Of a DNA stretch of 64,000 nt, positions 5,711 to 38,374 are shown piece by piece. The DNA is from a virus, in the IMG/VR virus record IMGVR_UViG_3300008627_000683, positions 1-64,000 of that record; one strand, given 5' to 3'. The notes under the pieces are model-generated. The model had not been told where the DNA came from. It ran no database searches and saw only the letters and a program-made list of their open reading frames with translations. Positions within the stretch are counted from its first letter, which is position 1. Every line of letters begins with the position of its first letter. Both the position numbers and the translations under genes were made by a program.

Positions 5711-7780
5711 TTAACCAGTGCGTTTTGTGATCATTTCAGTGATATTAGCAGGGCACGGTGCGTAGTGACTAAACTCCATACTAAACTGACCACGGCCGCT
5801 CGTCATACCACGCAAGTCGCCAATATAGCCAAACATTTCACCAATTGGTGCTTCTGCCCAAATGCGTACCTTTTGTCCACTAACTTCTTGATTGCTAATC
5901 ATGCCGCGGCGTCTGTTAATGTCGCCAATAACGTCACCAACTTTATCCTCTGGAGCAATTACGTCAAGTTTCATGACAGGCTCTAGTAATTGTGGTCCTG
6001 CTTTAGGCATGGTTTGTCTAAAGCCACCTCGAGCCGCTAATTCAAACGCAATAGCACTTGAGTCAACTGCGTGTGAAGAACCGTCTGTTAATGTCACTTT
6101 AAAGTCTAACAACGGATAACCTGCTACAATGCCGTTATTAGCAGACTCTCTAAAACCTTTTTCAACAGCAGGCCAAAACTCTCTTGGCACATTACCACCG
6201 ACAACTTTTGATTCAAACTCAAAGCCGCCGCCTGATGGCAATGGCTCTATAGTATATTCAATATCACCAAACTGGCCAGAACCACCTGATTGCTTTTTAT
6301 GAACAAATTTGTCTTCCACTGTTTGTGTAATAGTTTCTCTGTATGCTACTTGTGGTTTACCAATACTTACTTCAATGCCATGGGTTCTTTTAAGAATGTC
6401 GCACTTAATGTCTAAGTGTAGTTCGCCCATACCCTTAAGAATAGTTTGCCCACTTTCTTGATCTGTTTCAACATGGAAGGACGGATCTTCAGCGACCATT
6501 TTACCAATAGCAGTTCCTAACTTATCCATGTCACCTTGTGTCTTTGGTTCAACAGCAATACTAATAACCGGGGCAGGGAATACCATTGGCTCTAGTACGG
6601 CGGGTTTATTTTTATCACACAGTGTATGACCTGTTTGTACAGTTTTCATACCAAGCAATGCAATAATATCGCCTGCTTGTGCAGAGTCCTTTTCTTCTCT
6701 ATTGTCGGCATGCATTTCTACAATACGGCCAACACGTTCGGACTTGCCTGTGCTACTGTTATAAATTGTATCACCTTTGTTAAGTTTGCCAGAGTAAATG
6801 CGTGTAAATGTCAATGCACCATACTTGTCGTCCATAATCTTAAACGCAAGTGCTCTTAGTGGTCTGTCATCATCAACAATAGCATGTTCACCTGTTTCAT
6901 TGCCTTCTAAGTCTACTTCTGGCTGTGGATCAACCTCAGTAGGATTAGGCAAATAATCAACCACGGCACTCAATACATTTTGTACGCCTTTATTTTTAAA
7001 TGAACTACCACAGAATGTTGGGAAGAAATCACAATTAATTGTACCCTTGCGAATACACTTTTTAAGATCTTCTTCGCTAATGCTGTCAGGATCCTCCATC
7101 CACTGCATCATTACATCGTCGTCTTGCTCTACAACTTGCTCTACCATTAGATCATAATATTCTTTGGCCTTGTCTGCCAAGTCTGCAGGAATGTCGCTAA
7201 TAGTGTAAGAAGTAGGATCTGCTGAATTTGACCAGGCCCATGCTTTTTGCGTAAGAATGTCTACAATGCCTACAAAATCATCTTCAGCACCAATTGGAAT
7301 AGCCATAATAACTGGTACTGCGTTTAAGCGATCTTTAATTTGCTCTACTACACGATAGAAATCTGCACCAACTCTATCCATTTTGTTAACGTAAATAACA
7401 CGGGCAACTTCACTGTCATTAGCATAACGCCAGTTTGTTTCGGATTGTGGTTCTACGCCTCCTACCGCGCAAAAAACACCAACGCCACCGTCTAATACTT
7501 TCAATGAGCGGTATACTTCAATTGTAAAGTCAACGTGTCCTGGTGTGTCAATAATGTTAAACTGGTGGTCATCCCAAAAGCATGTTGTAGCGGCTGACTG
7601 AATAGTAATACCGCGTTCCTGCTCTTGCTCCATAAAATCTGTAGTAGCGGCGCCGTCATGTACTTCGCCTATCTTATGGATTTTACCTGTTAGTTTTAAA
7701 ATGCGCTCTGTTGTTGTAGTTTTACCTGCATCAACGTGAGCGAAAATTCCTATGTTTCTATACTTTTGTAGATCTGACAT
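5711..7780 (-). CDS. fusA: Translation elongation factor G
   Basis: Full-length EF-G of 689 residues (cellular forms are about 700). GTPase motifs are intact: G1 AHVDAGKTT (14-22), switch [10 protein letters not shown] (78-85) and G4 NKMD (132-135), with the switch I region [10 protein letters not shown] also present. Domains II-V continue without a break to the conserved end. EF-G drives tRNA-mRNA translocation and, with RRF, ribosome recycling. Cys104 corresponds to the redox-sensitive cysteine of E. coli EF-G. Both an early-type (7826-7854) and a late-type (7808-7815) promoter precede it, so it may be made throughout infection. Presence in a phage is unusual and fits the bS21, bL33 and tmRNA genes. 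Confidence 0.96.
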
Positions 7781-7858: not shown

Positions 7859-9490
7859 TTAGAAACCCCACCAATCACGTACTCCGGGATTAAATGACCC
7901 GCTGGTTGTTCCTGTTATTTTCTCAACTTGCCCATCGCTGTTAGGCACGGGAGTAGAACTGAAATATTTATACTTTATCCATTCTTTACATTTATGACCT
8001 CCAACAAAAATTTCTTGTTCATTATAAGCATCTAATTCTACTTTATATCCCCAGATATAAGCAATATAGTTTAGCACGTCTACAGTAGATTCGTTTGCTA
8101 ATTCTCTACCGCTTTTACCTCTGTATAAATGTAACAATAATGTTCTTTTATCATCATGATCAAAGTCTCTTACTTGTATATCTGGAATGCGATAGTTATA
8201 GTCATATTGTCTTGCTAATTCTTTGCGTATGCTCTTGTAACCAGCGTTGTTATGGATTGCTTTTACTTGATAATGTGGATCTTGCTTGCGGTCGCCAAGT
8301 TGGAACAATCTAAAATCACGTATAACTTTTGGAGATAAAAACTGTAGTATAAAACTCTCGTCCCTATAATTAGCAACGATGTCTAATGTAATCTCTTTCC
8401 AATTACCGCCAGCAACATCAGGAAACCATTCTTTATCTTCTTTTGTTGGCTCATCGCACATACGTTTAATGTCTTGAAAAATAGCAAAACCTAATGCATA
8501 TGGATTTATGCCACCATAATATGGTTTATCAAATGTAAGTTGGTTTAAAACGTTTGTGTGTAGTTTTAAAAACTCTAGCATACTTGCGTCACAAATCAAA
8601 CCTTTTTCATGTAAACGATTCATTGTATAATAATGCACAAAGCAAGCATATCCTTCGTTCATCACTTTTGTTTGTCCTTGCGGATAAAAATATTGTGCTA
8701 TCTTACGCACAATACGACATAATTCGCGTTGCCAATCTGTTAAATTAGGCGCGTTTTTTTCAAGGAAATATATAATGTTTTCTTCTGGTTTATCCAAATA
8801 AACATATTTTCTGTCTGTTTTCTTCTTTTCTTCCTTTTTACGTTTAATTACTGTTGTGTCCCATAACTCATTAACATGTTTGCGTAAGTATTCTGCCCTT
8901 TCACCCGCTTTCTCTGCCTCTGCATACGAATTAAGTTTTACTGGACGCTTATATTTGTTAATACCGTAATTACGAATAGAGTGTAATGCATCTAAAAATA
9001 GTTCTACTTCGTCTAATCCATATTTTTCTTCACACTTCTTAACAAAGTTTTTAGCAAATACAAGATAATCAATAATTGCTTCTGCGTTTGTCCATGTTTT
9101 AAACAAGTAGTTATTTTTAAAGAAATGGTTGTGGCCAAACGCGGCGTGAGCAATAACTAATGCTTGCGTGGTCATTGTATTCTCTTCCATGAGATAGTTT
9201 ATGCATGGATTACTATTAATAACGAGTTCGTATGCTAAACTAGTTCTACCTTTTCTGTATTGATTTTCATAATGTGACCATGCCTTACCATTGCTCCAAT
9301 GGTTATATGATAAGGGCATACCAATACTTGCATATGCATCTAACATTTGCTCAAACGTTACAACTTCAAGTTGGTTCGTGTAAGTATCGCAACCAAGTTC
9401 ATTAACTGCAATATCTTCGCAAGCATCGTAGATGTTACTTACAAGTTCAAAACTCCAATCATCTTGTTGTGTGAATAATAGTTTAGTCAT
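7859..9490 (-). CDS. spoVR: SpoVR family protein
   Basis: The 543-residue protein matches the SpoVR/YcgB family in length and signatures: an N-terminal W/Y-rich block (GMPLSYNHWSNGKAWSHYE), the central NEGYACFVHYYTMNRLHEKG segment and the C-terminal VRDFDHDDKRTLLLHLYRG. In bacteria spoVR is coexpressed with prkA/yeaG and yeaH and linked to sporulation, stationary-phase and stress physiology; its biochemistry is unresolved. Here the three genes are contiguous. The ATG at 9490 overlaps the yeaH stop by 8 bases. Confidence 0.93.
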   Translation of the reverse strand: MTKLLFTQQDDWSFELVSNIYDACEDIAVNELGCDTYTNQLEVVTFEQMLDAYASIGMPLSYNHWSNGKAWSHYENQYRKGRTSLAYELVINSNPCINYLMEENTMTTQALVIAHAAFGHNHFFKNNYLFKTWTNAEAIIDYLVFAKNFVKKCEEKYGLDEVELFLDALHSIRNYGINKYKRPVKLNSYAEAEKAGERAEYLRKHVNELWDTTVIKRKKEEKKKTDRKYVYLDKPEENIIYFLEKNAPNLTDWQRELCRIVRKIAQYFYPQGQTKVMNEGYACFVHYYTMNRLHEKGLICDASMLEFLKLHTNVLNQLTFDKPYYGGINPYALGFAIFQDIKRMCDEPTKEDKEWFPDVAGGNWKEITLDIVANYRDESFILQFLSPKVIRDFRLFQLGDRKQDPHYQVKAIHNNAGYKSIRKELARQYDYNYRIPDIQVRDFDHDDKRTLLLHLYRGKSGRELANESTVDVLNYIAYIWGYKVELDAYNEQEIFVGGHKCKEWIKYKYFSSTPVPNSDGQVEKITGTTSGSFNPGVRDWWGF

Positions 9491-10829
9491 CACTTTTATC
9501 CTTTGGTGTAAAAAACCTTCTAAAAACTGGATATATATCTTTGCTTTGATGAACTCTACCTAATTGTATATTCGACCATTCTTGTGATAACATATAATAT
9601 CTCTTTTCCATACCAGCGCCTGCTACATATTTCAAATCAGCATGTGTCTGACCTGCATTAGGAACAATGCATAAGAATGTAAAATATTGGCAAATAGGTA
9701 AAAGATCGTTGCGTAAAACTTCTGCTACTTTATCATTGTCTGTTGTAAAATTATCACCATCACTTGCCTGGCTAATATAAATGTTCCAGTGTTCTAAATC
9801 ATATCGCTTCTTAATAATTTCATGTGTTAATTCTAATGCTGAACTTACTACTGTGCCGCCACTTTCTTTGCTATTAAAGAATTCATCTTCTGTACATTCC
9901 TTAGCAACAGTATGGTGGCGTATAAACACAATGTCTACCAAGTCATACTTCATATTTAAAAACATATGTAGTAAAATAAAAAAGCGTTTTGCTAAATTCT
10001 TTTCACGTTCTTGCATTGATATTGATACATCTAAAATACAAAACATTACAGCCGCATTTTTAGGCTTTGGTACTTTAGAGAAGTTGTTAAACTTTAGATC
10101 AATTGGATCAATAAACGAGATAGCATTGTATCTTGCTCGTATGCGTTTTATCTCTTCCTCAATCTCTTGCAAACGTAGCCATTCTTGTGTTCTATGATCT
10201 TTGCCTGGTGGCAATGTAGCAAAAAACTCAAGTATTTTATCACGCTCTTCTAGTAGTTCGCGTAATTTTCTTCCCTTAGGCTTTTTAAGAGCCAAACGTC
10301 TGCCAATACTGCGTATCATGCTCTGTTCTAAATTTAGATTGTTTGGTGAGCCTTCATTTACATAACCTGCTCTTTCAACACTAAACTCTTCAATACTTTT
10401 CTTTTGTTTCTCTATTAAATCAGGAAGTTCTAAGTCTTCAAATAATATATCTAAAAATTCATCTTTGTTTATAGAGAATACAAAATCGTCTTCGCCATAT
10501 GCATCATCTGAACCTTCAGATCCGCCGCCGCCTCCTTGGCCACCCTGGGGTGGTTTGCGTATTTTATCGCCAGGAACATATTCTTTATTGCCGGGTAAGA
10601 CATAATCTTTTTCACCTGATTTAGGATCGTATTGGAATTGTGGTTCTTTAATACTTTTAGCAGGAACTTTGACGCGGCTGCCAGACTTTAGATCCTTGAT
10701 AGATCTGTTTTTAATAGTTTCGTCTAAGCTTTCCTTAATATACTTCTTTGACCGCTCAATGAAGCGTTGTCTATTGGAAAGATTCTTTCCCTTAGGATTT
10801 GAACGCCTGTCAATAATATGCTTGGCCAT
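9483..10829 (-). CDS. yeaH: YeaH/YhbH (DUF444) protein with von Willebrand A-like domain
   Basis: The 448-residue protein has the family N-terminus (IIDRRSNPKGKNLSNRQRF), a low-complexity Gly-rich linker (about residues 95-105) and a VWA-like domain with the metal site DVSIS (near 266). YeaH is the usual genetic partner of the kinase PrkA/YeaG; in E. coli the pair works under nutrient stress. Order prkA-yeaH-spoVR is as in bacterial genomes, so the module was probably acquired as a block. Confidence 0.93.
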   Translation of the reverse strand: MAKHIIDRRSNPKGKNLSNRQRFIERSKKYIKESLDETIKNRSIKDLKSGSRVKVPAKSIKEPQFQYDPKSGEKDYVLPGNKEYVPGDKIRKPPQGGQGGGGGSEGSDDAYGEDDFVFSINKDEFLDILFEDLELPDLIEKQKKSIEEFSVERAGYVNEGSPNNLNLEQSMIRSIGRRLALKKPKGRKLRELLEERDKILEFFATLPPGKDHRTQEWLRLQEIEEEIKRIRARYNAISFIDPIDLKFNNFSKVPKPKNAAVMFCILDVSISMQEREKNLAKRFFILLHMFLNMKYDLVDIVFIRHHTVAKECTEDEFFNSKESGGTVVSSALELTHEIIKKRYDLEHWNIYISQASDGDNFTTDNDKVAEVLRNDLLPICQYFTFLCIVPNAGQTHADLKYVAGAGMEKRYYMLSQEWSNIQLGRVHQSKDIYPVFRRFFTPKDKSDD

Positions 10830-10838
10830 GGTAAACCC

Positions 10839-12779
10839 TTAACTTGACTTCTGGGTTCTCATGTACCATTCAACAAGTCTACGAACTTGCCTATCAGTAT
10901 AACCTTTCTCTTCCATACGAGCAACAAAGTCATTGTGCTTTTGTTGGTCATCTTTGTTTTGCTTATTACCAAAGGAAATAATAGGTAGTAGTTCTTCTGT
11001 GGACGCAAACATTTTCTTTTCAATAATCTCGCGTAGTTTTTCATAACTCGACCACTTTGGATTCTTACCTTTGTTTTTTGCTTTTGCTCTCAATACAAAG
11101 TTGACTACTTCGCTACGGAAGTCTTTTGGATTAGCGATACCGGCTGGTTTCTCAATCTTCTCTAACTCCTCGTTTAGTACTTCGCGGCTAAACAAGTTGC
11201 CTGTGTCAGGATCTTTAAAGTCAATCTCTTGAATCCAGTGATCAGCGTATTCAATATAACGATCAAACAAGTTTTGTCCATAATCACTATAACTTTCTAA
11301 ATATGCTTTTTGTATTTCATTACCAATAAAGTCAGCATACTTTGGAGCCAACCATTCTTTAATAAAGTTTGTGAGCGTTTTTTCATTTTCCTCACCAAAC
11401 TGATCGCGTTTAATTGCTTGCTCTAGTACAAACATCAAATGTACTGGATCAGCCGCAATCTCGTTTGTGTCAAAGTTAAACACTTGTGACAGTATCTTAA
11501 ACGCAAAACGTGTTGATGAGCCAGACATGCCTTCGTCTACTCCCGCAACGTCTTTATATTCTTGTAGTGACTTTGCTTGTGGATCAGTGTCTTTTAAATT
11601 CTTGCCGTTATACACTTGCATTTTGGAAAACAAATTACTGTTTTCATGCTCACGCAGTCTACTTAAAATACTATACTGCGATAACATTTCAAGTGTTTGC
11701 GGGGCACATGGATGCTGTGCTAGTCCACTTGAGTCTAGCATCTTTTCGTAAATACTAATCTCTTCATCAATACGTAAGCAGTAAGGAACCTTAACAACAT
11801 ACACACGATCTAGGAACGCTTCGTTGTTTTTGTTGTTCTTAAATGACTGCCATTCTGATTCGTTACTATGTGCTAAAATTGTTCCACTAAACGGAATAGC
11901 ACTAATACCTTCTGTACCCATATAGTTGCCTTCCTGCGTAGCAGTTAGCAATGGGTGTAATACTTTGATTGGTGCTTTAAACATTTCAACAAATTCCATA
12001 AGGCCTTGGTTGCCTTTACATAATGCACCACTAAATGCGTATGAGTCTGGATCGTGTTGTGAGAAGTACTCAAGTTGACGAATATCTGTCTTACCAACCA
12101 ATGAACTAATGTCTTGGTTGTTTTCGTCACCTGGCTCTGTTTTTACTACAGCAATCTGTTTTAGTTTACTTGGCTGTAATTTTACTACTGTAAATTTAGT
12201 AATGTCACCATCAAATTCATCCAAGCGTTTAATTGCCCATGGGCTTAGTAAGCCAGTTAGGTAACGCTTTGATATTTTATATTCTTTCTCAATTTGCTCA
12301 CCATATTTCTCAGGAGAGAACAGAGACAACGGACTTTCAAAAACAGGGCTAATTACATCGCCTGCTTTTAGTACATAAATTGGATGTATTTCCATTAATT
12401 CTTTTAAACGTTCAGCAAGACTCGACTTGCCGCCGCCCACTGGGCCCAACAAATATAATATTTGTTTACGTTCTTCTAAGCCTTGTGCGGCATGTTTAAA
12501 AAATCCAACAATTCTTTCTACGGTATCTTCTAGTCCGTAAAAGTCTTTAAATGCTGGATATACTCGTAATGTTCTGTTCAGGAAGATGCGTGACAACCGT
12601 GGATCTTCCGAAGTATCTATATGCTCTGGGTCCCCAATGGCAGCTAACATTCGTTCTGCTGATGTAGCATATGCGAGTGGGTCCTTCTTACATAGATTTA
12701 GATACTCTTCAAGTGTGAACTCTTGCTCTTTATATGATTGGTAATCTGCAGAGAACTCCTTTAATAGTTTGCTTGCCAT
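10839..12779 (-). CDS. prkA: PrkA/YeaG serine protein kinase
   Basis: The 646-residue protein matches PrkA across its length. The AAA-like N-terminal domain has Walker A LGPVGGGKSSLAERL (near 110) and the family block GLMEFVEMFKAPIKVLHPLL followed by TATQEGNY; the C-terminal PrkA domain ends in a helical DRQVRRLVEWYMR tail. PrkA/YeaG phosphorylates serine/threonine and governs stress and starvation responses. A phage copy could hold the host in, or release it from, a stress state; this is inference. It is the first gene of the three-gene module. Confidence 0.94.
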   Translation of the reverse strand: MASKLLKEFSADYQSYKEQEFTLEEYLNLCKKDPLAYATSAERMLAAIGDPEHIDTSEDPRLSRIFLNRTLRVYPAFKDFYGLEDTVERIVGFFKHAAQGLEERKQILYLLGPVGGGKSSLAERLKELMEIHPIYVLKAGDVISPVFESPLSLFSPEKYGEQIEKEYKISKRYLTGLLSPWAIKRLDEFDGDITKFTVVKLQPSKLKQIAVVKTEPGDENNQDISSLVGKTDIRQLEYFSQHDPDSYAFSGALCKGNQGLMEFVEMFKAPIKVLHPLLTATQEGNYMGTEGISAIPFSGTILAHSNESEWQSFKNNKNNEAFLDRVYVVKVPYCLRIDEEISIYEKMLDSSGLAQHPCAPQTLEMLSQYSILSRLREHENSNLFSKMQVYNGKNLKDTDPQAKSLQEYKDVAGVDEGMSGSSTRFAFKILSQVFNFDTNEIAADPVHLMFVLEQAIKRDQFGEENEKTLTNFIKEWLAPKYADFIGNEIQKAYLESYSDYGQNLFDRYIEYADHWIQEIDFKDPDTGNLFSREVLNEELEKIEKPAGIANPKDFRSEVVNFVLRAKAKNKGKNPKWSSYEKLREIIEKKMFASTEELLPIISFGNKQNKDDQQKHNDFVARMEEKGYTDRQVRRLVEWYMRTQKSS

Positions 12780-25388: not shown

Positions 25389-25417
25389 ATTATATATTAC
25401 ATTACGGTCATTGTCAA
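25389..25417 (-). promoter_or_regulatory. Consensus sigma-70 promoter
   Basis: TTGACA (25417-25412) and TATAAT (25394-25389) are exact consensus hexamers with a 17-base spacer. The -35 overlaps the stop codon of the SbmA-like gene. AATAAATA, a late-like element, also ends 5 bases before the ATG at 25351. Confidence 0.8.
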
Positions 25418-26436
25418 GAAATAGCGTATTTGTTTAGATTGCGCTCGAATTCGCTCAAACGTTTATATATTGAACGCAATTCTGTAATTGTTGTCCAGTT
25501 ATGCAAGAATAATGCAAACCCACCATGTACTTTCTGGAACGCATTTGACACTTGCACTACTACACCTAATAATACAGCACCAGTAAACAAACTTGGACCT
25601 ACGATTAAGTAAGGCACAATAACCATTGCTTGATCATACATAATCATCCATGTGTCAAAATATCCATAGTGTAAGTACAAACGTTGATAGTTGAAACGTA
25701 TGCCTGTGAATAAACTTGCTAATGTTTCTGGTTGTGCATAGTTTACTTTGTCATCTTCACCAAACACTAAATCCTTTCTAAATGCGGCTTCGACACGTTG
25801 ATTGTTATATTCAAGTCCGGGCAGTTTAATACCTACAAACCATGAAATAACCAACCCGCCTATAGATACAAATAATGCTACCCATACAAGTGAGCCAGGA
25901 ATGTCGCTAAAGAATGGAATAGTAACTGAAGAACTTAACCCCCACAGCACTGGAATAAACGCAACGAGTGTCATTAACGCCCGCACAACTTGCAATCCCA
26001 AACTTTCTACAATTCTAGCAAACCGATTGCAGTCCTCTTGAATACGCTGTGATGCACCTTCAATTTCTTCTTCAACATTGCGCCAACGCGGAATGTAGTC
26101 AAAGGTCATTGCCTCTCGCCAACGGAGTCCGTATATGCGTGTAAACCACCCAGTGAGCACCGCTAACAGCACATATGGAAATGCTAATACAGCAAATGAG
26201 GGATCACCATCACTAAAATATTGTAAGCCTAGTAATTTTTCATAAAATAAAGAAATGCCTTCACTGGCATTATTTTTATATTCACCAGACTTTTGTAGTA
26301 AGTCATAAAATCCACCATACCATGTGTTTATCGCTACTGTTAATTGAACTTGTAACCATAACGATATAACTAATAGAGAGCCACCGCCATAAGCCCATAG
26401 TGCCCATTTCTTAGTTTTATAAAATGCTTTTATCAT
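25414..26436 (-). CDS. SbmA/BacA-family peptide transporter
   Basis: The match to E. coli SbmA runs nearly full length from about its residue 70: VAINTWYGGFYDLLQ, EEEIEGASQRIQEDCNRFA, VGIKLPGLEYNNQRVEAAFR, KDLVFGEDD and WTTITELRSIYKRLSEFE. SbmA/BacA are inner-membrane, proton-driven transporters that import peptides, including antimicrobial and nodule-specific peptides and microcins. At 340 residues it lacks about the first 70 residues and a little of the C-terminus. It is followed by a 4-base overlap with the next gene. A phage could use it for peptide uptake or to alter peptide sensitivity. Confidence 0.9.
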   Translation of the reverse strand: MIKAFYKTKKWALWAYGGGSLLVISLWLQVQLTVAINTWYGGFYDLLQKSGEYKNNASEGISLFYEKLLGLQYFSDGDPSFAVLAFPYVLLAVLTGWFTRIYGLRWREAMTFDYIPRWRNVEEEIEGASQRIQEDCNRFARIVESLGLQVVRALMTLVAFIPVLWGLSSSVTIPFFSDIPGSLVWVALFVSIGGLVISWFVGIKLPGLEYNNQRVEAAFRKDLVFGEDDKVNYAQPETLASLFTGIRFNYQRLYLHYGYFDTWMIMYDQAMVIVPYLIVGPSLFTGAVLLGVVVQVSNAFQKVHGGFALFLHNWTTITELRSIYKRLSEFERNLNKYAIS

Positions 26437-28795: not shown

Positions 28796-29577
28796 GAATA
28801 CATACTTCCATATAAATCTAAATAAGGTACTAACACATTTTTACACCAGTCACAATGACCTTCATAACTCGGATGCATCCCGTCTTCATAGAGGGTAATA
28901 TTTTTATCTATAGACCATTGCAGTATGCTTTTTTCTAGAGGTATTACTTTAATATTAGAATATCTATGTAAAAAATCCAATGTTTGTGGGTACATCTCGT
29001 CTTTGTATTCTCCATACCAATCCCAACCAAAATATAATATTATTTCTTTGACCGTATTAGACCATAAGCCTATATTAACAAGCGTTTCTTGCAAATGATA
29101 AATTGTTCGGGTAAGGCAGCCAAATTTCATTTCATAATGAAATCTTTGATTGTTTGCTCTAATACTTATTGCTTTCCTGTTAAAAATACTCCATTCTTCT
29201 TCAGTATAACTTTTTAGTTTATTGTGATAGAACCACATCCAATCCCAGTCAGGTTTCTTCTCAACGTCGTCTTCCCCATATTTAAGACCATGAAACTCTA
29301 CATCTTGATCGTCATTCAATAGATAAAAAAGTCTATCTGGCGCTGTTAACTGCCAAAGTAGTGTGGTATCTTTATTAATTAAATTTTTTGCATAAAGATT
29401 AGATAATCTATGGTGTTGTAAATAATTGTCTCCACCGCCTTGTGAAATATGTTTAATATCTAAACTATAGGTACCATTTAAATAGTGCACATAGCCGTGC
29501 TGTTGAGTTAAACTACATCCTGTTAAACTACATCCTAAAGCAACATATTTGTAAGGCGTTTCTTCTTTCGTTTCCAT
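28792..29577 (-). CDS. SGNH-hydrolase-like protein, 261 aa
   Basis: Block I is ALGCSLTGCSLTQQ, the G-G-G-D-N-Y stretch fits block II and DGMHPSYEGH gives the catalytic D-x-x-H. This resembles marine phage SGNH proteins of unknown substrate. I chose the ATG at 29577 because ACTAAATA stands 5 bases before it; another ATG lies at 29583. Coupled to the HNH gene. Confidence 0.7.
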   Translation of the reverse strand: METKEETPYKYVALGCSLTGCSLTQQHGYVHYLNGTYSLDIKHISQGGGDNYLQHHRLSNLYAKNLINKDTTLLWQLTAPDRLFYLLNDDQDVEFHGLKYGEDDVEKKPDWDWMWFYHNKLKSYTEEEWSIFNRKAISIRANNQRFHYEMKFGCLTRTIYHLQETLVNIGLWSNTVKEIILYFGWDWYGEYKDEMYPQTLDFLHRYSNIKVIPLEKSILQWSIDKNITLYEDGMHPSYEGHCDWCKNVLVPYLDLYGSMYS

Positions 29578-29590
29578 ACACATATTTAGT

Positions 29591-29622
29591 GGGGGCGACT
29601 TTGTTAAGAAGGTGTCGCCCCC
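29591..29622 (-). terminator. Hairpin at the tmRNA 3' end
   Basis: GGGGGCGAC (29622-29614) and GTCGCCCCC (29599-29591) form a perfect 9-bp stem with a 14-base loop. It lacks a strong U-run, so it may be a structural end or a processing site as well as a terminator. Confidence 0.6.
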
Positions 29623-29645
29623 GAAACCCCCTACGCGACCGCTAA

Positions 29646-29684
29646 TTAGGCGGCTAATGCGTAATCGTAATAATCGTCATTTGC
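29646..29684 (-). other. tmRNA tag reading frame (ANDDYYDYALAA-stop)
   Basis: Resume codon GCA at 29684-29682, then 11 more codons and TAA. With the alanine carried by tmRNA itself, the tag added to stalled proteins would be AANDDYYDYALAA. The terminal LAA is the part read by ClpX, so tagged proteins should be degraded. Confidence 0.9.
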
Positions 29685-29852
29685 AATTATATAGTTTGCT
29701 GTTTTTTAATATGGAACTGCTCCCATATGTCGTCCATTTATCCTCTTCACCCTGTCGAAACTGTGTCACCCCCGTAAAAAATTTGGTGGAGGTGCCGGGC
29801 ACTGCCCCCGGGTCCAGAATGCGTACTTTCAACTTCATACGACAATCAAAAT

Positions 29853-29860
29853 TATTTATA
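29853..29860 (-). promoter_or_regulatory. T4-type late promoter TATAAATA upstream of tmRNA
   Basis: Minus-strand octamer about 30 bases upstream of the acceptor piece, with no gene between. It places tmRNA synthesis in the late phase of infection. Confidence 0.7.
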
Positions 29861-29872
29861 TAGGTGTAGAAG

Positions 29873-29902
29873 AATAAAGGAATACCTGAGCATTCCTTTA
29901 TT
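29873..29902. terminator. Hairpin terminator between bL33 and tmRNA genes
   Basis: An 11-bp perfect stem (29873-29883 with 29892-29902, AATAAAGGAAT and its complement) and 8-base loop overlaps the bL33 stop codon. Its A/T-rich stem base can supply a U-run in either direction. Confidence 0.65.
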
Positions 29903-30071
29903 TAATTTTCTTTTCTTCAAACCAGACGTGTTTTCTTAAAACTGGATCGTATTTCTTTTTACGTAGTTTTTCAGGATTGCGTCCGTTTTTAGTAGTAGTA
30001 TAATAGTAGCCAGTGCCTTCTGTTGACACTAGTTTAACTATTCTAATTGATTTACTAGTAGGATAAGACAT
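29898..30071 (-). CDS. rpmG: 50S ribosomal protein bL33
   Basis: A 57-residue protein matches bL33 end to end: [20 protein letters not shown], then [20 protein letters not shown] and a terminal EEKKIK (E. coli L33: IKLVSSAGTG, YTTTKN, PEKLELKKFDP, EAKIK). bL33 binds the 50S E-site region. The start overlaps the upstream stop as TAATG, and a hairpin closes the gene. It is shorter than common ORF cut-offs and easily missed. A phage copy could replace host bL33 on ribosomes during infection. Confidence 0.95.
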
Positions 30072-30397
30072 TAGTATTGATTTTTTGTTGTGTTGTCGGC
30101 AAACGCATGATTGTCAATAACATGTTCTTTTGCTTTTTCATTTGTCATTTCATCAGATGTTTCCGGAATAAAAGGAACATCAAGATTTGTGTAAGTGTTA
30201 TACCAACGTGATGATGGGCCCCATGTTGCGGGCCCGCAATCGAAATATGGTGTTTCAGTGTACCTATGTGTTTCTTTGAGTATTTGTTTTGAATTTGATT
30301 CTTGCAGATCTTTACAAAATGCGTAAAAAGTTTCTGCTTTTTCAACATCGCCTTCTGCAAGTTTGAGACACTCTAATTTTAAAGTTGAGTCATCCAT
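30071..30397 (-). CDS. Hypothetical protein, 108 aa
   Basis: A soluble protein with a helical N-terminal half ([19 protein letters not shown]) and a Pro/Tyr/Trp-rich middle. Coupled to bL33 by TAATG, so it may be co-regulated with translation genes. ATG 30397 is preferred to an upstream in-frame TTG. Function unknown. Confidence 0.65.
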
Positions 30398-30411
30398 AAT
30401 CAAATCCTATA

Positions 30412-37492: not shown

Positions 37493-38326
37493 TTAATTAT
37501 TATACATTTCCATAGCACGAATAAAACGTGTCATACCAATGCCACCGCCTACTCTTGGAAAGAAGTCCATTGCTAAAAAGTCTTCCAACTCTTTTTCAAC
37601 TCTTTCTCTACCAAACGTATCAAATAGTATATTAGCATAACCGCCGTCACTAATAGTATGGAACATATGTTTCATTTGTTCTTTATCTGTAGCACGTTCT
37701 GCTGATCCAATTGTTTCTTGTCCAGCAATAATAACATCAATCTTTGCCGCAGTTTCGCCATCGTCGTTTTGTTTCATGTTCCAAAATGGACTTGTGTAGT
37801 TTGGAAAGTTTTTAATCATTGCTACACGGCCATTAAAGTTTTGGCACATTTTTTCTTCATGCTCGTGTTCTAATTCTTTAACGCCGTAAATATCACACCA
37901 TTCTAAATAATCTTTAGCAACAATGTTTTCGCCATCGGACCATGTTAAGTAGTCCATAAGTTCGCGTTCCATCTTCTCTAAATCTAAAATAGTTCCTGGA
38001 AACTCAAACTCAAACATTGGAAATATTAGTTCATGTCTACCAGCTACCGGATTTGGCTCTTGCCTATAGGAGGTGGAAATACAAAAAAACCCCGGAACGT
38101 CGGGGCGTGTTAGTAATTCATGTTCGAGCCACATTTGGCCCGTTTGTGGCAGGGGCCATAGTTGCCCTGCGTAATTATAGGTCGCTATTGTTGTTGGATC
38201 TTCGCATGCCGCTAGTATGCTTAATCTATTTTGTGTGTGTACTTCTAAGAATCCTTTAGCCATAAAAAAAGACCTTAATAGGTCTGCGGCTTGTGTAAAG
38301 TGTTGTGGATTGATAAGTTGTGTCAT
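37493..38326 (-). CDS. Class II aaRS-like enzyme (AsnRS/AspRS or asparagine-synthetase-A-like core), 277 aa
   Basis: Class II motifs are present: motif 2 in STSYRQEPNPVAGRHELIFP with MFEFEF after it, and motif 3 GGGIGMTRFIRAM at the C-terminus; a GQETIGSAERATD block lies before it. The fold most resembles the catalytic core of Asp/Asn-tRNA synthetases. At 277 residues there is no anticodon-binding domain, so it may make an amide, like the archaeal asparagine synthetase relatives, or attach an amino acid to a non-tRNA target. ATG 38326 is chosen for its GGAG site. Confidence 0.75.
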   Translation of the reverse strand: MTQLINPQHFTQAADLLRSFFMAKGFLEVHTQNRLSILAACEDPTTIATYNYAGQLWPLPQTGQMWLEHELLTRPDVPGFFCISTSYRQEPNPVAGRHELIFPMFEFEFPGTILDLEKMERELMDYLTWSDGENIVAKDYLEWCDIYGVKELEHEHEEKMCQNFNGRVAMIKNFPNYTSPFWNMKQNDDGETAAKIDVIIAGQETIGSAERATDKEQMKHMFHTISDGGYANILFDTFGRERVEKELEDFLAMDFFPRVGGGIGMTRFIRAMEMYNN

Positions 38327-38374
38327 TGTTTTCTCCATTCAAAATTTTTTTAGGCCTGTTGCCTAAACTGTTTC

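Follow-up and report, generated by a model that had tools for sequence, protein, structure and literature searches.

Two-piece tmRNAs encoded by phages have already been published (PMC9004378). The tmRNA gene of phage Melnitz was placed after an early promoter by the paper describing it, whose authors propose a past change of host (PMC9004378). Besides Alphaproteobacteria, the permuted form is found in Betaproteobacteria and Cyanobacteria (PMC11915505), and RNase P makes the 5′ end of tmRNAs in general (PMC3985003). We analyzed a phage gene of this kind in a 64,000-nucleotide stretch (positions 1 to 64,000, hereafter the window) of the 77,365-base IMG/VR virus record IMGVR_UViG_3300008627_000683.

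A first-pass annotation had proposed a circularly permuted tmRNA with its own tag at 29591-29823. Searches with the Rfam models (cmscan) gave two matches above their cut-offs at this locus: RF04321 (tmRNA_permuted) at 29646-29844, covering model positions 1-213 of 213 (121.8 bits; cut-off, 47; E = 2.9e-23), and RF01849 (alpha_tmRNA) at 29588-29882 (83.7 bits; cut-off, 50). A permuted tmRNA was called independently by ARAGORN at 29555-29876, with the tag ANDDYYDYALAA*. Chance origin is excluded by the model scores, and a complete permuted tmRNA gene on the minus strand is thus confirmed. The proposed span fell at the right locus and missed approximately the first 24 nt of the acceptor piece, whose 5′ end we place at 29847. 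The parts of the gene are as follows.

29588..29847, minus strand: permuted tmRNA gene (ssrA), from RF04321, RF01849, and ARAGORN; 5′ end placed from the octamer spacing, 3′ end that of the model
29784..29847, minus strand: acceptor piece with the P2 strands, T-arm, CACCTCC, and ACCA, from sequence and model; 5′ end placed as above
29795..29811, minus strand: T-arm CCGGG-GGCAGTG-CCCGG of the alphaproteobacterial type; the sister locus L125 has a canonical T-arm here
29774..29783, minus strand: intervening sequence of 10 nt with no ORF, from a pairing scan
29588..29773, minus strand: coding piece with GGGGGTG, D segment, tag frame, and 3′ hairpin, from sequence and model
29754..29766, minus strand: D segment ACACAGTTTCGAC, with A in the place of the canonical G18 (presumed base numbering)
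29646..29684, minus strand: tag reading frame ANDDYYDYALAA and stop TAA, from ARAGORN

The order is permuted, the 3′ tRNA-like piece standing ahead of the 5′ tRNA-like and coding piece. Read from the minus strand, the T-arm is followed by CACCTCC-ACCA, the 10-nt intervening sequence, GGGGGTG, the D segment, the tag frame, and a strong 3′ hairpin. The CCA end, the 7-bp acceptor stem with a G3-U pair (formed by GGGGGTG and CACCTCC in the pairing scan), and the tag frame that had been reported are all present on this strand, and the ARAGORN call bears out the ALAA end of the 12-residue tag. Permuted tmRNAs with the same gene order were also found in two related phages, where the tag is kept as ANDDYYDYAMAA (L125) and ANDDYYEYALAA (L127). 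The minimum-free-energy fold is not decisive by itself (z = −1.53, with 17 of 200 shuffles equally stable; z = −1.90 in a further calculation) and was dropped as proof of a tmRNA. The window gene is probably a functional phage permuted tmRNA. A phage tmRNA might instead act as a decoy that competes with or poisons host trans-translation, as the tag-less form from phage DS6A inhibited the endogenous tmRNA when expressed in Escherichia coli (PMC11915505). Because the tag frame, the stop, and the acceptor stem are intact and conserved here, we consider this very unlikely.

The phage, a marine one, looks large and T4-related. A 201,690-base contig (L107) and a 62,081-base contig (L094) contain stretches that match the window exactly or almost exactly, L107 being a 1,946-base stretch of record G001 that is 100% identical to the window. 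T4-like matches include ribonucleotide reductase, baseplate, exonuclease, helicase, primase, and polymerase genes, and the best named match of the exonuclease is to Agrobacterium phage Atu_ph07. Among named phages, the DNA of the locus gave one match, covering 11% of the query, and the tmRNA of L060 gave none. The window carries several further genes on its minus strand: SpoVR, DUF444, and PrkA genes together at 7859-12779, a trio that forms a bacterial cassette; an SbmA/BacA-like transporter gene at 25414-26436 (PF05992, 3.7e-122); and, at 37493-38338, a gene for a 281-aa protein resembling class II aminoacyl-tRNA synthetases (PF00152, 7.3e-15; phrog_29758). DNA similar to this last gene occurs in L062 and in L018, and L018 has a permuted tmRNA as well.

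The tmRNA gene lies downstream of a small cluster that includes translation-related genes, and an elongation factor gene is found elsewhere in the window.

29898..30071, minus strand: ribosomal protein bL33, 57 aa (PF00471, 2.3e-15)
30071..30403, minus strand: 110-aa protein with no family match and counterparts in L125 and L127
30412..30579, minus strand: 55-aa hydrophobic protein, probably a membrane protein, with no Pfam family and with counterparts in L125 and L127
30603..30902, minus strand: ClpS, the ClpAP adaptor, 99 aa (PF02617, 3.2e-27)
5711..7780, minus strand: elongation factor G, full length, 689 aa (six Pfam families, all EF-G domains; phrog_6880)

The order clpS, hydrophobic protein (53 to 59 aa), 106- to 114-aa protein, bL33, and tmRNA is common to the window, L125, and L127, with one extra gene ahead of the tmRNA in L125. 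Relative to the window, ClpS is 84% and 73% identical and bL33 79% and 67% identical in L125 and L127, respectively, and EF-G in the same three lineages stands at 100%, 93%, and 83%. The nine records with tmRNA, bL33, and ClpS (G000-G008) represent only these three lineages. In five records selected by EF-G (G016-G020), ClpS and a permuted tmRNA are both absent; G018 and G019 have a weaker bL33 match, one of them above the cut-off. ClpS was considered as a general partner of phage tmRNAs and rejected: all 13 tmRNA-bearing records among 21 have ClpS, but ClpS had been the selection criterion for 15 of the 21 and EF-G for 5, the remaining record being that of the window. In a tmRNA pattern scan of 119 loci (47 of them with a tmRNA by ARAGORN), ClpS or bL33 was seen only at L094 and L107, which belong to the same phage as the window.

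The earlier proposal that the phage supplies its own ribosome rescue holds insofar as it encodes its own permuted tmRNA; SmpB was not found in 23 phage records, which may be fragments, by a search that was positive in 10 of 14 control genomes. ClpP was not found in G000 or G001 and was present in 6 of the 12 records searched, all of which may be fragments; SspB was found in none of 12 records. Since SmpB and ClpP were not found, function of the tmRNA would rest on host partners. That no SmpB was found with the gene, together with the frequent integration of genomic islands into tmRNA genes (PMC11915505), would also suit a passenger gene that was taken from a host and persists unused. Such a passenger would not be expected to stay with clpS and bL33 in three lineages, nor to be better conserved than both: between the window and L125, 246 of 269 aligned tmRNA columns are identical, compared with 80% of clpS and 78% of bL33 at the DNA level. 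Considering also the compensatory changes and the phage-type promoter described below, we judge an unused passenger very unlikely, and a functional gene is favored.

A late octamer upstream of the gene had also been proposed. The sequence TATAAATA is present at 29860-29853, about 30 nt ahead of the gene start given by the first-pass annotation (29823) and 5 nt ahead of the 5′ end as placed here (29847).

29853..29860, minus strand: late-promoter octamer TATAAATA, with no −35 hexamer (best, 2 of 6 matches to TTGACA) and no sigma-70-like match there
29875..29900, minus strand: terminator-like hairpin between bL33 and the octamer, read from the sequence, with a near-identical hairpin in L308

Of 21 copies of TATAAATA in the 77-kb record, 18 lie within 60 nt upstream of ORF starts on the same strand, 1 is at the tmRNA, and 2 are at neither. 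For comparison, the 55 other arrangements of the same letters were upstream in 140 of 1,145 occurrences (12%); both counts use a gene set made by a simple longest-ORF pick, with the 60-nt, same-strand limit. The abundance of the octamer in the 64-kb window is unremarkable (18 copies versus 11.9 expected; 6 of 100 shuffles were as high), so the reading rests on placement. A gp55-type sigma factor is encoded on the overlapping 201-kb contig G001 (phrog_12791, 3.0e-80; phrog_234, 1.5e-24); no late sigma factor was found on the 77-kb record itself. These observations support TATAAATA as a late-promoter motif in this genome and agree with the earlier call. On the minus strand of the window, the octamer stands merely 4 to 6 nt before the start codon at 1062, 2049, 42830, 48997, 53060, and 57909, which suggests leaderless late mRNAs for these six genes. 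If they are leaderless, transcription would start about six bases past the octamer, placing the start of the tmRNA transcript near 29847, at the acceptor piece. The tmRNA promoter of the window is probably of the late type.

The octamer is absent at the tmRNAs of L125 and L127, where other sequence stands upstream; L308 has CATAAATA, with one mismatch. Upstream of other viral tmRNAs, TATAAATA was found in 20 of 44 distinct sequences (other letter orders: mean, 1.5; maximum, 9), and upstream of bacterial tmRNAs it was found in 0 of 112. Because a −35 hexamer matching in 5 or 6 of its 6 positions accompanies the octamer in 12 of these 20 viral sequences, they are not clean evidence for late promoters, and such sites may be sigma-70 or dual promoters. 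At the tmRNAs of L003, L009, L012, L030, L089, L102, L138, and others, a TTGACA-like −35 box is followed by a 17- to 18-nt spacer and TATAAATA; promoters joining the two elements are possibly usable both early and late.

Alternatively, read-through from the clpS-bL33 operon could keep the window tmRNA expressed at all stages of infection, the octamer being of little weight; in L127, bL33 runs directly into the tmRNA with neither octamer nor hairpin. In the window and L308, by contrast, the hairpin parts bL33 from the octamer position, a hairpin that a simple terminator scan of the window did not list. We think read-through of this kind rather unlikely and prefer expression from the late-type promoter.

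The tmRNAs of the window and L125 differ mainly in the T-arm and D segment. In the T-arm, 8 of 17 bases differ, the loop being GGCAGUG in the window and UUCGACU in L125 and the outer stem pair C-G and G-C, respectively, while the flanks on both sides of the arm are the same. The outer pair is the third compensatory change between the two RNAs; the other two are paired changes outside the elbow, one in the hairpin that follows P2 and one in that at the tag end. The remaining differences, which are neither elbow nor compensatory changes, are a Leu/Met codon in the tag, one base by which the intervening sequences differ in length, and the ends. Since L127 and L308 have canonical T-loops, the elbow of the window looks derived.

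The T-arm with its context, 30 fixed bases (GGACCCGGGGGCAGTGCCCGGCNNCTCCACCA), occurs exactly in at least 118 genome contigs. Among the 118 contigs listed, tmRNA pairing and the D segment are also present in 113; by title, 109 are from Alphaproteobacteria, several of these genus placements being presumed (that of Desertibaculum was checked), 7 are from unclassified proteobacteria or bacteria, and 2 are from other groups. The last two, a Nitrosovibrio and a Saccharibacteria MAG, may be misbinned.

T-loop base 55 changes in step with the fifth base of the D segment, the place of G18. In 120 viral tmRNAs with 13-nt D segments, distinct by letters and many of them closely related, G55 occurs with A18 in 109 and U55 with G18 in 11, with no exceptions, the numbering of G18 being presumptive. 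The other 20 of the 140 viral rows, with D segments of 12, 14, or 15 nt, were set aside because the position there depends on the alignment. In an earlier reading of all D lengths from the left, 9 of 78 rows among the matches listed fell outside both classes; eight of these carry D segments that are not 13 nt long, and in the ninth the T-arm is misregistered. All 113 distinct genome loci among the matches listed are G55/A18, but these loci had been chosen by their T-arm, which set the T-loop in advance. Much of the coupling follows from shared descent, and the difference between the window and L125 is the one clear independent change seen.

As far as its letters tell, the window RNA is a mosaic, with a putatively alphaproteobacterial elbow set into a body shared with L125. 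The T-arm spans only 17 nt, of which 8 differ from L125, and the D segment (ACACAGTTTCGAC) is not fully alphaproteobacterial (consensus, AUAGGAUCGAC), as might be expected if the elbow had changed by chance drift or convergence rather than by uptake of a patch from an alphaproteobacterial system or adaptation to one. The letters, however, are those of a common alphaproteobacterial T-arm, the flanks are identical in L125, and the partner base 18 differs in step. Drift or convergence is a possibility to which we give minor weight, and replacement of the elbow is preferred. As sister phages' tmRNAs differ mainly here, the pair allows one to ask from natural sequences whether elbow type is selected by SmpB or by processing enzymes.

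Outside the elbow, the body of the RNA is not distinctive, fitting the beta model nearly as well as the alpha model: the window scores 83.7 bits with RF01849 and 74.0 bits with RF01850 (beta cut-off, 84, not reached). L125, in record G004, scores 87.2 bits with the beta model and 41.0 bits with the alpha model. The B lineage scores 99.6 bits with the beta model in one search; in the record search, it gave two partial beta matches (53.1 and 36.7 bits) and an alpha score of 52.8 bits. The characteristically alphaproteobacterial parts are the T-arm and the accompanying D-loop change. The alphaproteobacterial architecture claimed at first thus stands as to the alpha model and the elbow, but the permuted form as such is shared with the betaproteobacterial and cyanobacterial genes cited above.

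The relation of elbow type to host was checked in five isolates, comprising one of four Melnitz records, three of eight further records, and Phosso. The elbow is G/A in Phosso (Sinorhizobium) and Melnitz (OM43) and U/G in the Alcaligenes, Stenotrophomonas, and Pseudomonas phages. It agrees with the host in four of the five, and elbow type was rejected as proof of host because Melnitz, the exception, infects OM43 and has an alpha-type elbow. An alphaproteobacterial host, as had been claimed, is favored by the alpha-type elbow and the exact T-arm; it is likely, and not proven in view of Melnitz.

As a whole, the locus is quite probably best explained as a functional, late-expressed permuted tmRNA that is charged with alanine, works with host SmpB, and has had its elbow replaced as a unit. 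Late in infection, the gp55-type sigma factor would bring host RNA polymerase to TATAAATA, and the transcript would begin about six bases past it, at the start of the acceptor piece. The 10-nt intervening sequence would be cut out by host tRNA-processing enzymes, leaving two RNAs joined by base pairs in the acceptor stem and P2. Charged with alanine by virtue of the G3-U pair and bound by host SmpB and EF-Tu, the tmRNA would rescue ribosomes stalled on broken mRNAs and add the phage's own tag, ANDDYYDYALAA. It would form part of a translation set with ClpS, bL33, and EF-G. The elbow (T-arm and D-loop base 18) would have been swapped recently, as a unit, for the alphaproteobacterial version, most simply as a fit to SmpB or processing enzymes of an alphaproteobacterial host.

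In relatives of the window, the intervening sequence holds more. L127 and L308 have a 192-nt intervening sequence with a 47-aa ORF ending in a C-terminal hydrophobic helix. The two ORFs differ at 48 of 141 positions, 25 of which are third codon positions (permutation P = 0.0008), with pS of 0.78 and pN of 0.22. A protein-based scan returned 28 viral loci, 22 nested in a permuted tmRNA gene and 6 elsewhere. The 22 nested loci comprise 15 distinct sequences, among which pS exceeds pN in every one of the 105 pairs (computed on 26 codons, leaving out the last five). The stop codon is a TGA 1 nt ahead of the coding piece in 14 of the 15 and, in L330, a TAG directly ahead of it; the invariance of IVYLIFF is partly ascertainment because the scan was seeded with it.

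A separate DNA scan, using the CCA end and a Shine-Dalgarno-like stretch, returned at least 120 stretches. Among the matches listed (119 loci), the coding piece is present in 108 and absent in 7, and 4 are too short. Also among the matches listed, 76 of 78 distinct intervening sequences have a hydrophobic ORF, in 74 of these 76 a TGA stands 1 nt ahead of the coding piece, and a single profile (built from 13 proteins, some within the tested set) matches 73 of the 77 ORFs found in the 78. An earlier start just past the Shine-Dalgarno-like stretch is in frame in 45 and overlapping in 30 of these 77 listed ORFs. Examples of the nested gene are as follows.

L308, 646-789: nested gene
L310, 577-720: nested gene
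Loci between L344 and L458: further nested genes, from the DNA scan

A conserved gene for a small membrane protein, predicted from sequence, thus appears to be nested in the tmRNA genes of relatives. In the 113 bacterial loci listed, all selected through a single T-arm, intervening sequences reach at most 99 nt and contain no ORF of at least 25 aa. Thirteen nested proteins had no match in PHROG and only sub-threshold Pfam matches to DUF2542 (7 of 13 members; best E = 0.011), and one member gave nothing against named phage records. No description of the nested gene was found in literature searches or in the available sections of PMC11915505 and PMC9004378; the only features that those of PMC11915505 report inside intervening sequences are a tRNA gene and a repetitive element. 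The 10-nt intervening sequence of the window is too short for such a gene, and no homologue was found in the 77-kb record. It may be what is left after loss of a nested gene, but short intervening sequences lacking the gene are also widespread, with lengths of 50 nt or less in 42 of 140 distinct viral rows; as the rows come from seeded scans, this share does not estimate a natural frequency. Another hydrophobic ORF, of 35 aa and unlike the nested family, is seen in the 133-nt intervening sequence of G012/G014 (L156).

As RNase P makes tmRNA 5′ ends (PMC3985003), its cut is expected at the first base of the coding piece. In a speculative joint reading, the intervening sequence of many marine phages would be a gene for a single-pass membrane protein of 34 to 48 residues, with a UGA usually 1 nt before the RNase P cut; tmRNA maturation would leave a near non-stop mRNA, trans-translation would limit the output of protein or be reported by it, and the window phage would be a derived case that lacks the nested gene and has its elbow refitted for alphaproteobacterial SmpB. 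The E. coli ArfA mRNA lacks a stop codon, and its output is tied to trans-translation (PMC10107115). We consider the joint reading unlikely in its entirety. Should the nested gene be confirmed, the permuted tmRNA gene would have a second product that had not been suspected, and its intervening sequence would have a function.

Among the described systems, Melnitz resembles the window in being T4-related and in having a permuted tmRNA with an alpha-type elbow (GGCAGTA/A18) whose best clan match is RF01849. The Melnitz tmRNA, however, has a −35-like box together with TATAAATA upstream (DNA of L300), whereas the window has no −35 box; its intervening sequence is 142 nt rather than 10 nt; a glutamine riboswitch lies near its 3′ end; and clpS and bL33 are upstream of the tmRNA in the window, unlike in Melnitz. 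The Melnitz intervening sequence (L300, 659-800) is one open frame throughout, unlike the nested family. For the Melnitz tmRNA an early role has been postulated (PMC9004378), in contrast to the late-type promoter of the window, which lacks a −35 box. Unannotated permuted tmRNAs were also seen in Sinorhizobium phage Phosso (L299, 349596-350198), with an alpha-type elbow and a 410-nt intervening sequence in which, by eye, two long perfect hairpins extend over the mature ends, and in the stretches shown of Alcaligenes phage vB_Af_QDWS595 (L301), Stenotrophomonas phage vB_SmaS-DLP_6 (L302), and Pseudomonas phage SM1 (L303).

Alphaproteobacterial ssrA (RF01849) shares the permuted order, the T-arm letters, and the G3-U acceptor stem with the window, which differs from it in the near-equal beta fit, the phage-type promoter, and its own 12-residue tag. 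Betaproteobacterial ssrA (RF01850) is the model with which L125 scores best; the T-loop and base 18 of the window are not of the beta type. Viral bL33 has been reported from more than 10 viral contigs, almost only aquatic (PMC6375957); the window also has bL33 and joins it with a tmRNA, a word absent from the available main text of that paper. Huge phages carry translation sets with EF-G, tmRNA, and SmpB (PMC7162821), and the window has EF-G and a tmRNA, SmpB not having been found; the permuted form, the promoter, and the elbow are not discussed in the available sections of that paper. The window tmRNA is therefore of a known kind, and its variant features are the late-type promoter, the replaced elbow, and the conserved translation-gene neighborhood.
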